In this document: in pieces, positions 18,589 through 22,484 of the stretch
How the letters are laid out: each line of letters begins with the position of its first letter
Position numbering within the stretch: position 1 is the first letter of the stretch
Origin: Saprospiraceae bacterium
Lineage (GTDB): Bacteria; Bacteroidota; Bacteroidia; Chitinophagales; Saprospiraceae
Direction of reading: 5' to 3'
Assembly: GCA_027080725.1 (NCBI GenBank)
Contig: JALWRC010000064.1
Location: forward strand, 62,001 to 126,000
Length of the DNA stretch: 64,000 nt
Position numbers and translations under genes: made by a program
Notes under the pieces: generated by a model
Databases searched by the model: none
What the model was told of the DNA's origin: nothing
What the model saw: the letters and a program-made list of their open reading frames with translations, nothing else

Positions 18589-19530
18589 CTATGATTTGAC
18601 AAATTTAAATGGGTGACTGTAACCATTCGAATCTTTGACTAAAAAGATATAGGAGCCTCCGGGCAAAGAAGACACATCGAGAGAGATCGAGTGGATTTCG
18701 CGGGAAGGAGTCAATTGTACGGTTTTTTCCTGCCATTGGTTACCGTCCATACTCCAAATGGAAGTATGAAACATTGCCGTTTGATTCACCCTGTATTCGA
18801 GGATTAATTCATTTTCTACGAGATTAGAGTTTAAATGCAAATCCTTTATAGGATGCAAATCTATGACCCCGTTTGAAATCATGGCATCCGTTCTTGACAA
18901 TTTGAATACATGTTCTCCGACGGTGTTATTCAGTCGTTTTAGCCACTTTTTTGTTCCGTGATTAATGGTATATGACACTTCGACTCCTTTGGACTTAAAG
19001 TCTCCGTCTTTTGATCCTTCAAAGGCAACCTCAAGGCTCATCGGTCGTTTTTGGTAATTAGACATATCGAGTCCCGGCGTAGTGTAACAAACTTGATTGG
19101 TATATCCTGTTGATTCTATCAATAATCCACCATCTTTACCACGCACCCGGATGCTTCCGGTATAATCAGACTCAGCTATGATGCGACCAAATGGTCTGCC
19201 GTTTGAAGTGGGCTGCCTACACACTCCACAATTGTTACAATTGGTCTTGATGTTGTTGTTAAAGCAATCGTCTAAATAAACTTTTTCATCTATTGGCAAA
19301 TCGCTACTCGTAGTACCGATATTATAGACGATTCTTGACTTGCTTCCAAACGTTTTCACATGGATATATTTGAGCATGAGTGCTCCCTTATGTCTTTGAT
19401 CATTGCCCTGCGCATCTTTGACCGGTTCAACCTTGGTGGTAGCTCCACAAAAAGTCACTTCCAGCCATTGGCCATGTAAAGTAACGAGAACAGCAAATTG
19501 AATAGCAATGAAGAATAAATATCTTTTCAT
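18589..19530 (-). CDS. Secreted protein with T9SS sorting domain, function unknown
   Basis: 313 residues. Signal peptide MKRYLFFIAIQFAVLVTLHGQ; a cysteine-bearing middle part with CNNCGVC (about residues 97-103) that could bind metal or form disulfides; and a C-terminal ~75-residue T9SS type A-like domain (LEYRVNQTAMFHTSIWSMDG ... VSSLPGGSYIFLVKD ... FKFVKS). No enzyme family was recognised in the body. It is transcribed in the same direction as the thioredoxin-dockerin protein upstream, about 360 bases away. Confidence 0.75.
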   Translation of the reverse strand: MKRYLFFIAIQFAVLVTLHGQWLEVTFCGATTKVEPVKDAQGNDQRHKGALMLKYIHVKTFGSKSRIVYNIGTTSSDLPIDEKVYLDDCFNNNIKTNCNNCGVCRQPTSNGRPFGRIIAESDYTGSIRVRGKDGGLLIESTGYTNQVCYTTPGLDMSNYQKRPMSLEVAFEGSKDGDFKSKGVEVSYTINHGTKKWLKRLNNTVGEHVFKLSRTDAMISNGVIDLHPIKDLHLNSNLVENELILEYRVNQTAMFHTSIWSMDGNQWQEKTVQLTPSREIHSISLDVSSLPGGSYIFLVKDSNGYSHPFKFVKS

Positions 19531-19888: not shown

Positions 19889-21667
19889 CTAGAAACTTAC
19901 AAATCTTCTGATCGATCGTCTTCCATTCCCCGTCCACACAATCACATAAAAGATACCGGAAGAATTTACGTTGATTTTGATTGCTTTCCGGCCAGTGACC
20001 ATATTTCGCTTGTCGCATAGCAATTGGCCATCCGTCCTCACTACTTGCACCGCAATAATATCTTCCATGCTTGAACGAACAGTTATCTGCTTACTCTGAG
20101 GATGGTATGAAATAGCTACGGGAGCACCTTCAACTCGATGATTAATATCGCGAAATAGTAATCTTACCGGGTGCTCGAGTAAATTGTCATCGGTACTCAT
20201 CGCATCCATGCTCTTACTCAATGAAATAAAATCCGACAGTTGTCCGGATTTTTTGGCCGTTATGTGAAGATAGAAGACAGGGATATCCTTTTTGAAATCA
20301 GTTGGAATCTTGGGAGTAACAAACAAAATATTACTATTGTCATTGGAGATGGCAGCTATATGTGTAAAATCCGCAAGAGCTTTATTCTCTGTAACTATAC
20401 CATCCAATGTACATCCGTTATGCTCTACAGAGACACCCATTTGGAAGGTATAAAGAGATTGGTTTGCCCCTGAATACACCGGTATTGAGTATTTTTCTCC
20501 TTTCTTCAAATATACGTCATTGACATACAAAAGGGTAGGGGTATTGGAGCGAGTGTTACTACTCCCATTTCCCACGAGGCTCTCTTCTGTCCCGGTGATA
20601 TCACCCAGTTTTACGGCTTTCAGTAGGACATCCTTTTGCCCGACCAATTCATTGAGTGGGATGACGTTGCGGGTTTTTGGCAAAGTGTCAACCAACGTGT
20701 CAAGCACGATTTCATTTGTAGCATCCCATACCCTCACTGCGGAGTCTTTGGGGAATGCCTTTTTCTTGCCCAAAATAATCTGCCGGATAAACAATATATC
20801 CTGAATATTGATAAGTCCATTCTCATTAACATCAGCAGCGTAAAGTAGTATTTGATCTTTAAACGGACGTCTTCCTATAAGATGCCATAAGACAAAGAGT
20901 AAATCCTTGGTATTCACCCCGTCTTCTGCGATTGCATGATAGGAAGAATGAAGATAATAACCGGAAGTATCCAGAGGAAGCTCGTATTCACATTGGTAGT
21001 CATACAAACTGTCTTTATAATTGATCTCATATACATCTGCCCCGAGCTCATCCGAAATTAATCTGACATCAAAATCCTCTGCCGTTATCCCTTGAAATAC
21101 CTTTCCATAAGGTTTGAGCTTGACACGAAATGACGCAGGACAATTATCGACAGGAGGGGGTGTCTTGAGCGCCTCTTTCAGCGTGTCCGTCATTTGGTCT
21201 CGCGCAATGCGGTAATGTACATCTCCCTTGGGGCCTATAACCACGTATGTCGGGGTACCAAGAAACCGCCCGTAATCCCCCCTGGTATATGGAGATGCCG
21301 CCACAAGACTATTGCCTTGAGGGCTCACTGAGGGGAAGGTCAAACCATGTTTCTGCGCATATCCCAACACCCCTTCGTCATCATCCCAAGCTTTAACACT
21401 CAACTCGATAAACTCCACCTGTCCTTTGCCGGATTGCCAATCATTTTCATAAATCTTTTTTATTTTTGGAGCATCGGCATTGCAAGGTGGGCAAGCGACA
21501 AAAAACAACTTTAACATGACCGCCTTCCCCTTATCCAAGTAGTCTTTGTAAAGTGAAAAGCGTCTGCCATGGACGTCAGTTACGGTAAAATCCGGTGCTT
21601 TTTGAGCATATGTAATGAATGGAAGCCCAATTAGTAATAAAAAGTAAAGGTAGGTACTCTTTCTCAT
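19889..21667 (-). CDS. Secreted thioredoxin-dockerin-cohesin-like protein with T9SS tail
   Basis: 592 residues from the ATG at 21667 (an ATG at 21691 lies eight codons upstream but the signal peptide MRKSTYLYFLLLIGLPFITYAQ starts here). Order of parts (numbered from this start): TlpA/AhpC-like thioredoxin fold (about 23-165) with a CPPC redox motif (59-62); a linker; a dockerin-like pair of calcium loops (first 'EDGVNTKDLLFVLWHLIG' near 248-265, second 'DVNENGLINIQDILFIRQIILG' near 279-300); a cohesin-like beta-sandwich (about 370-490); and a C-terminal T9SS sorting domain (about 505-592, SGIFYVIVWTG). The signal peptide and tail place it outside the cell. A secreted disulfide or thiol enzyme held in a dockerin-type assembly is a reasonable inference, not proven. 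Confidence 0.8.
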   Translation of the reverse strand: MRKSTYLYFLLLIGLPFITYAQKAPDFTVTDVHGRRFSLYKDYLDKGKAVMLKLFFVACPPCNADAPKIKKIYENDWQSGKGQVEFIELSVKAWDDDEGVLGYAQKHGLTFPSVSPQGNSLVAASPYTRGDYGRFLGTPTYVVIGPKGDVHYRIARDQMTDTLKEALKTPPPVDNCPASFRVKLKPYGKVFQGITAEDFDVRLISDELGADVYEINYKDSLYDYQCEYELPLDTSGYYLHSSYHAIAEDGVNTKDLLFVLWHLIGRRPFKDQILLYAADVNENGLINIQDILFIRQIILGKKKAFPKDSAVRVWDATNEIVLDTLVDTLPKTRNVIPLNELVGQKDVLLKAVKLGDITGTEESLVGNGSSNTRSNTPTLLYVNDVYLKKGEKYSIPVYSGANQSLYTFQMGVSVEHNGCTLDGIVTENKALADFTHIAAISNDNSNILFVTPKIPTDFKKDIPVFYLHITAKKSGQLSDFISLSKSMDAMSTDDNLLEHPVRLLFRDINHRVEGAPVAISYHPQSKQITVRSSMEDIIAVQVVRTDGQLLCDKRNMVTGRKAIKINVNSSGIFYVIVWTGNGRRSIRRFVSF

Positions 21668-21773
21668 GACAAATGGGTTTTTAGAGTGCATGAACTTTAA
21701 TCATAAAAAAACTGAACCTAAAGGTAAGGTAAATGTTTGATATACACATTATTTAGCACCAATTTATTCATCA

Positions 21774-22484
21774 ATGTCAAAGAGAATACCAAAAGTACGG
21801 TTTGTTGACCTGGGACACATTGATTACCAAAAGGCTTGGGATTATCAAACAAAAATACACGAATCTATAAAAAAATCGAAGCGGGAAGATGCTGAAGGTA
21901 CACCGGTAAATACCTTGATTTTTTGCGAACATCCCCCCGTCTATACCCTTGGCAAAAGTGGTCACTTGAGTCACTTACGGTATTCTTCACGTGATTTGGA
22001 GGCCGAGGGCATCTCGTTTTATAAGATTAATAGGGGAGGGGATATCACCTATCACGGGCCGGGTCAATTGGTCGTCTATCCTATCTTTGACTTGGAACAG
22101 TTTAAAAGAGATGTGCATTGGTACGTACGACAATTGGAAGAAGTCATTATACAAACCCTTGCTCTTTATGGCATTACGGGAAGTCGTATGGATGGCTATA
22201 CCGGTGTGTGGATTCAAGGAAACCCCAATAAAAAAATCTGCGCGATCGGCGTGCATATGAGCAGATGGGTTTCCCTTCATGGATTAGCTTTTAATGTTGC
22301 ACCTAATCTAAATCATTTTCAAGGCATTATACCTTGCGGGATTGACGACCCGGACAAAACCGTAACTTCTATGCAAGCAGAACTAAAACAATCGATTGAT
22401 TGGACGGTTTTAAAGGAGCAAGTCAAACAACAATTTCATACCATATGCGACGTGAACTACATAAACGAAGAAAGTACTATATGA
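21774..22484 (+). CDS. lipB: Lipoyl(octanoyl) transferase
   Basis: 236 residues. Moves octanoate from octanoyl-ACP to lipoyl domains of 2-oxoacid dehydrogenases and GcvH, the first step of lipoate synthesis. Signature RGGDITYHGPGQ (87-98) and KICAIG with catalytic Lys154, and catalytic Cys188 in IPCGI are all present. ATG 21774 gives a usual N-terminus. The stop overlaps the start of the thioesterase gene (ATGA), so the two are translationally coupled. No lipA is in the window. Confidence 0.95.
   Translation: MSKRIPKVRFVDLGHIDYQKAWDYQTKIHESIKKSKREDAEGTPVNTLIFCEHPPVYTLGKSGHLSHLRYSSRDLEAEGISFYKINRGGDITYHGPGQLVVYPIFDLEQFKRDVHWYVRQLEEVIIQTLALYGITGSRMDGYTGVWIQGNPNKKICAIGVHMSRWVSLHGLAFNVAPNLNHFQGIIPCGIDDPDKTVTSMQAELKQSIDWTVLKEQVKQQFHTICDVNYINEESTI

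Follow-up and report, generated by a model that had tools for sequence, protein, structure and literature searches.

The gene under study lies on the minus strand of the window, by which we mean the whole 64,000-nucleotide stretch of Saprospiraceae contig JALWRC010000064.1 analysed here. It occupies positions 19889 to 21667, exactly as the initial annotation had it, and forms an open frame of 592 amino acids plus a stop codon; an in-frame ATG upstream, at 21691, would lengthen the protein by eight residues. A sister of the same genus, a Saprospiraceae MAG, encodes a full-length homologue that is 52% identical. The divergent neighbour is lipB (21774..22484, plus strand), which scores 197.2 bits against the NCBIfam LipB model (cut-off 155). 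We also note a 313-residue neighbour at 18589-19530 on the minus strand, whose end resembles a type IX secretion system (T9SS) tail by eye and has no match to TIGR04183 at E 0.01. When ten thioredoxin loci were compared, only the one in the sister MAG had a homologue of this neighbour.

The protein begins with a signal-peptide-like start (residues 1-21; 21605..21667, this and all further features of the gene being on the minus strand), which was read from the sequence by eye and not by a prediction tool. A ResA/TlpA-like thioredoxin domain follows (residues 22-168; 21164..21604), with a CPPC motif at residues 59-62 (21482..21493). This assignment is supported by the Pfam AhpC-TSA model (41.1 bits, cut-off 26) and by a match to 4nmu_A (E 1.1e-8); with the equivalog-level ResA model the score is 44.5 bits, short of the required 170. 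C59, C62 and P139 are invariant in all 53 aligned thioredoxin domains, 42 of which have CPPC, and we take P139 to be the cis-Pro position of the thioredoxin fold. With both CxxC and cis-Pro, the domain belongs with the ResA/TlpA-like thioredoxins, in agreement with the CPPC redox domain first proposed. The thioredoxin and dockerin parts of our AlphaFold2 models are poor and are left uninterpreted, and the thioredoxin fold is not readable from the model. Between the thioredoxin domain and the dockerin lies a beta region (residues 175-243; 20939..21145), at whose position CarboxypepD_reg is matched in two of 27 aligned relatives and in several large paralogues; the Pfam scan of the protein's own sequence gives no CarboxypepD_reg match.

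Residues 250-305 (20753..20920) score 17.6 bits against PF00404, below the cut-off of 22.9 for dockerin type I, and by score we therefore call them dockerin-like. Sequence comparison nevertheless supports their homology to dockerins. Solved dockerins match the region at E 5.3e-4 with the single sequence and at E 4.6e-10 with the family profile, and PF00404 at E 0.01 matches 25 of the 27 members of the alignment with relatives. The second calcium loop, DVNENGLINIQD (residues 279-290; 20798..20833), is canonical. Across 43 thioredoxin-linked dockerins, D279 is kept in 41, N or D at position 281 in 39 and D290 in all 43, and with this conservation a chance dockerin match is rejected. In the alignment the first loop, HAIAEDGVNTKD (residues 244-255; 20903..20938), retains its last Asp, while positions 1 and 3 are neither acidic nor Asn, the calcium-ligand positions being those of dockerin loops in general. 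The two calcium loops originally described thus reduce to one canonical and one degenerate loop. With pLDDT at about 52 or less in both AlphaFold2 models, neither of which places the dockerin confidently, the dockerin fold rests on sequence. Residue 260 is L in place of the Q of the aligned own-genome dockerins and residue 261 is W; both positions presumably sit in the recognition helix, so the specificity of this dockerin may differ. The dockerin continues into an extension (residues 306-360; 20588..20752) that aligns with relatives and has K-L-G-D at its end.

The next domain, at residues 376-506 (20150..20542), is a cohesin fold according to its AlphaFold2 model, which matches cohesins 3ul4_A and 1ohz_A with Z 12.5 over 124 aligned residues at 2.5 Å; block pLDDT in this part runs from 49 to 88 and is at least 67 in most blocks. 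We also modelled a more typical module, taken from the sister MAG; this second model reaches block pLDDT 71-94 over residues 131-260 and matches cohesins with Z up to 12.3. A scan of genome contigs with the single protein gave no relative and one with a small alignment gave six loci, all in one sister MAG, so both predictions rest on nine sequences. The Pfam Cohesin model does not list the 592-residue protein itself at E 1; at E 0.01 it matches 13 of the 27 members of the alignment with relatives. The C-terminal residues 515-592 (19892..20125) are modelled as a type A sorting domain (CTD) of type IX secretion, matching the RemA CTD (8gl6_D) with Z 10.9, 74 aligned residues, 1.9 Å and 24% identity, despite a TIGR04183 score of 15.3 bits, below the cut-off of 23. 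SprA is encoded in the same genome (2198 bits). With SprA in the genome and a sorting domain at its C-terminus, the protein fits T9SS type A cargo, and secretion by this route is predicted. Of the domain order given in the initial annotation, the thioredoxin, cohesin and T9SS parts thus hold, the cohesin-like sandwich matching cohesins and no alternative fold; the dockerin is present by homology.

Dockerins (the plug) and cohesins (the socket) are parts known from cellulosomes, and the 3.8 Mb source genome contains many more of both. A search of this genome with the 592-residue protein gives 24 matches including itself, and 21 of the 23 non-self matches are to the dockerin-cohesin region of further proteins, most of which are much larger. 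Pfam Cohesin has 17 matches, 11 over cut-off; PF00404 has 24, with 16 over cut-off that do not include the window protein; and a separate cohesin alignment gives 21. The search for further cohesin and dockerin proteins that the initial annotation had proposed thus yields 19 dockerin-cohesin-CTD proteins in that order (20 with the window protein), three proteins with dockerin and CTD only, one with a single cohesin and SprB repeats, and a scaffoldin-like protein of 1248 residues in which four cohesins are combined with SprB repeats and a CHU_C tail. The census domain models were built from the window protein and relatives, so that scores for such members are not independent, and the census covers stretches fetched around hits, so that members far from hits may be missed. 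The scaffoldin-like protein (L070:3035-6781, minus strand) and its sister counterpart (L094:7595-11305, plus strand; SprB repeats, with four cohesins by one model and three by another) each lie beside a dockerin-cohesin giant.

Pfam scans of 22 of the 25 own-genome dockerin or cohesin proteins (four of them partial, and including L077, which has a Pfam dockerin only) show HYR, laminin-G, DUF11, P-domain and other adhesion-type domains. No catalytic domain, glycoside hydrolase, cellulase or cellulose-binding module is listed in these 22 proteins, and as far as this set goes a carbohydrate-degrading cellulosome is disfavoured. The set resembles the cellulosomes of Clostridia in its cohesin fold, dockerin motif, tandem-cohesin protein and dockerin-plus-cohesin adaptors within one genome, and differs from them in its T9SS CTDs, its adhesion-type domains and the lack of any glycoside hydrolase among the proteins scanned. 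One giant lies on the same contig just outside the window (L079:660-15494, minus strand): a protein of 4944 residues and 203 cysteines that ends in dockerin-cohesin-CTD and has 14 HYR stretches, one P-domain and a match to the lamin-tail domain that falls short of cut-off.

Cohesins are widespread in the family, being found in 110 of 120 sampled genomes. In eleven stretches from relatives, fetched because earlier matches pointed to several cohesins there, there is always an ORF in which two to eight cohesins and no dockerin are hit. In seven of these stretches the tandem-cohesin ORF is adjoined by a small one of 260-327 residues that consists of cohesin and CTD; such ORFs (e.g. L107:307-1110, plus strand; L108:7999-8796, minus strand; and five similar loci) are candidate minimal sockets. 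A dockerin-cohesin-CTD protein stands beside the tandem-cohesin ORF in two of the eleven stretches, as well as in the source genome and its sister.

The thioredoxin gene is likewise shared within the family, its domain being matched at E 1e-10 or better in 57 of the 120 genomes. An order-wide search of 298 genomes, in which at most six candidates were scored per genome and some matches comprise the thioredoxin part only, gives at least 36 genomes with matches at E 1e-12, at least 31 of them from the same family. We inspected the tails of 52 thioredoxin ORFs besides that of the window, leaving out weak matches, G087:C188 and one weaker G004 match. By the domain models, 33 are dockerin-terminal, with no cohesin or CTD, and none of these has a T9SS tail; seven are dockerin-cohesin-CTD proteins like that of the window, one is dockerin-cohesin (its end CTD-like by eye, not scored), eight are thioredoxin-CTD forms without a dockerin, and three are cut by contig ends. 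Thirty-one of the 33 are strictly dockerin-terminal, ending within 28 residues of the model's end, and the other two, L159 and L185, continue for 110 and 250 residues after the dockerin. Within the last 18 residues of the strict 31, K-x-G-D/N occurs in 26 and G-D/N in all, so that these proteins stop just past the K-L-G-D element of the extension. Since this ending matches the end of the extension in the longer proteins, dockerin and extension appear to be a C-terminal unit of their own. Two ORFs (L122:6284-8347, plus strand; L175:2598-4664, minus strand) have three thioredoxin domains followed by one dockerin.

Gene position is also conserved. As in the window, a divergent lipB homologue lies no more than 1.1 kb from 35 of the 52 ORFs, one lipB being counted for two ORFs of L174: 26 of the 33 dockerin-terminal forms, four of the seven dockerin-cohesin-CTD forms, the single dockerin-cohesin form, one of the eight thioredoxin-CTD forms and all three cut ORFs. 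Thioredoxin-dockerin proteins were found in 43 of the 110 genomes with cohesins and in none of the ten without (hypergeometric 0.0095). The three genomes in which the thioredoxin-CTD form alone was seen have zero, one and two cohesin matches, while the 43 have eight or more. The test carries no correction for phylogeny and two of these three genomes share a genus, which leaves the co-occurrence suggestive only; thioredoxin-dockerin was not found in 67 of the 110 cohesin-bearing genomes, a count that includes two with ORFs cut by contig ends and leaves weak matches uninspected.

The thioredoxin tree is poorly resolved, with eight of 50 inner branches starred and the bootstrap not settled, and therefore sets no direction of tail gain versus loss. 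The cohesin-bearing form requires seven changes on this tree, three of them forced by well-supported branches; with L159 and L185 relabelled from dockerin-terminal to cohesin-bearing, there are eight changes, two of them forced. Joining or loss of the cohesin-CTD part has thus probably happened more than once, going by this tree. This recurrence gives a hint of the Rosetta-stone type that the thioredoxin-dockerin works with cohesin-CTD proteins.

We suggest that the protein is probably an exported thiol-disulfide oxidoreductase whose dockerin targets it to cohesins within a surface network other than a cellulosome, and on balance we hold this reading to be likely. A dockerin-terminal enzyme, as in most of the inspected relatives, would need a cohesin on another protein; for a dockerin whose own chain lacks a cohesin, in genomes rich in cohesins, binding in trans is the best explanation. 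Candidate partners are the scaffoldin-like protein, the small cohesin-CTD protein and the dockerin-cohesin giant, and binding may depend on calcium. In the genus of the window, where the chain continues into a cohesin and a sorting domain for T9SS, the enzyme would be plug and socket at once, and this sorting domain should make it a T9SS substrate in its own right. The surface complex of dockerin and cohesin parts that the initial annotation had suggested is well supported as an inference by the 20 dockerin-cohesin-CTD proteins, the four-cohesin protein and the conservation of the gene in relatives; the control of disulfides that went with it is plausible, with indirect support only. Self-assembly into chains through dockerin and cohesin, also suggested there, is possible and would not be specific to the window protein, as 19 others share the dockerin-cohesin module. 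Evidence against docking to such a network comes from the degenerate first loop and the sub-threshold dockerin score, and the proposal gives the dockerin-terminal relatives, which are without a T9SS tail, no route to surface cohesins.

These observations can also be read without a network. All 20 own-genome proteins, and 38 of 40 relatives' loci fetched on cohesin or module matches, have dockerin, extension and cohesin next to each other in one constant order, a constancy that fits a dockerin and a cohesin of one chain binding each other to form a compact, calcium-stabilised stalk before the sorting domain. We think such an intramolecular clamp unlikely, given that 31 of the 52 thioredoxin ORFs keep the dockerin without a following cohesin and that the scaffoldin-like proteins carry tandem cohesins without dockerins. 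Those same 31 ORFs, in which the dockerin stands at the very end without a CTD and so is no export cassette, bear on another explanation, in which the protein is an ordinary surface thioredoxin, like HBP35 of P. gingivalis, and its dockerin-cohesin-CTD part is a general-purpose cassette for export and spacing that it acquired, plug and socket having no binding role. The tail is indeed common to 19 other, mostly much larger proteins, thioredoxin-CTD forms without a dockerin exist (eight of 52), and the window protein has a degenerate dockerin loop and a divergent cohesin. Set against the conserved ligands of loop 2 and the dockerin-terminal forms, we regard an inert tail as quite improbable.

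What the enzyme might act on is suggested by the composition of the giants. The 17 longer dockerin-cohesin-CTD giants of the source genome have 24-203 cysteines each and the two shortest of the 19, which are cut by contig ends, have two and nine; pooled, the 19 contain 3.37 cysteines per 100 residues versus 0.67 for window open frames of 350 residues or more. In 38 such proteins of relatives (L198-L237; 40 loci were fetched and two with tandem-cohesin proteins excluded), the tail of about 350 residues holds zero to two cysteines, whereas cysteine makes up 3.0-5.1% of the preceding part in all but one of the 38. Such cysteine-rich giants invite a role in disulfide care, in which an enzyme plugged into the cohesin would have its active site close to the client, either in the periplasm before export or at the surface. 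If thioredoxin-dockerin alone served the giants, they should be poorer in cysteine in genomes without it, and this prediction is not borne out: the median before the dockerin is 4.41 per 100 residues for the 19 proteins of genomes in which no such enzyme was found, against 4.40 for the 19 of genomes that have one (Mann-Whitney p 0.29). A role for the thioredoxin-dockerin in managing the disulfides of the cohesin-bearing T9SS giants is plausible and, in our estimate, rather doubtful.

Several known systems share parts of this arrangement. The 'planctosome' of freshwater Planctomycetes is described as a non-cellulosomal cohesin-dockerin system, with an adaptor that joins dockerin, HYR and cohesin in one chain (PMC6461901), and Ca. 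Stygibacter (Cloacimonadota) as having a tandem-cohesin scaffoldin whose C-terminal domain serves surface attachment, together with dockerin enzymes (PMC8542988); non-cellulosomal cohesin-dockerin assemblies are also described for ANME archaea. The planctosome and Stygibacter systems resemble the one proposed here in that adaptors or scaffolds accompany their dockerin and cohesin proteins, and HYR, P-domain and LTD are likewise present in one giant of the source genome. The cargo described for them is peptidases, glycoside hydrolases and the like, whereas the cargo proposed for Saprospiraceae is a thiol-disulfide oxidoreductase whose gene keeps its position. HBP35 of Porphyromonas gingivalis is a T9SS-tailed thioredoxin (PMC2907840; PMC3120885) with thioredoxin activity in vitro and a surface form (PMC2907840). 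It shares the thioredoxin motif and a conserved C-terminal domain with the window protein, which has both a dockerin and a cohesin, neither of them mentioned in the HBP35 abstract (PMC2907840). The literature searched, mostly outside subscription journals, describes no natural thioredoxin-dockerin and no Saprospiraceae cohesin-dockerin system; in one paper that mentions both thioredoxin and dockerin, thioredoxin is an expression tag. Within this literature, non-cellulosomal cohesin-dockerin assemblies and a T9SS thioredoxin are thus known, and a natural thioredoxin-dockerin and a Saprospiraceae system are apparently new.

The findings suggest that most sampled genomes of one family hold a cohesin-dockerin toolkit of plug enzyme, plug-and-socket adaptors and multi-socket scaffold, tied to type IX secretion and with a redox enzyme as its conserved cargo. 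The family is, moreover, a source of many natural plug-socket pairs. If the enzyme does dock to cysteine-rich cohesin proteins, disulfide chemistry would here be targeted by a novel mechanism.
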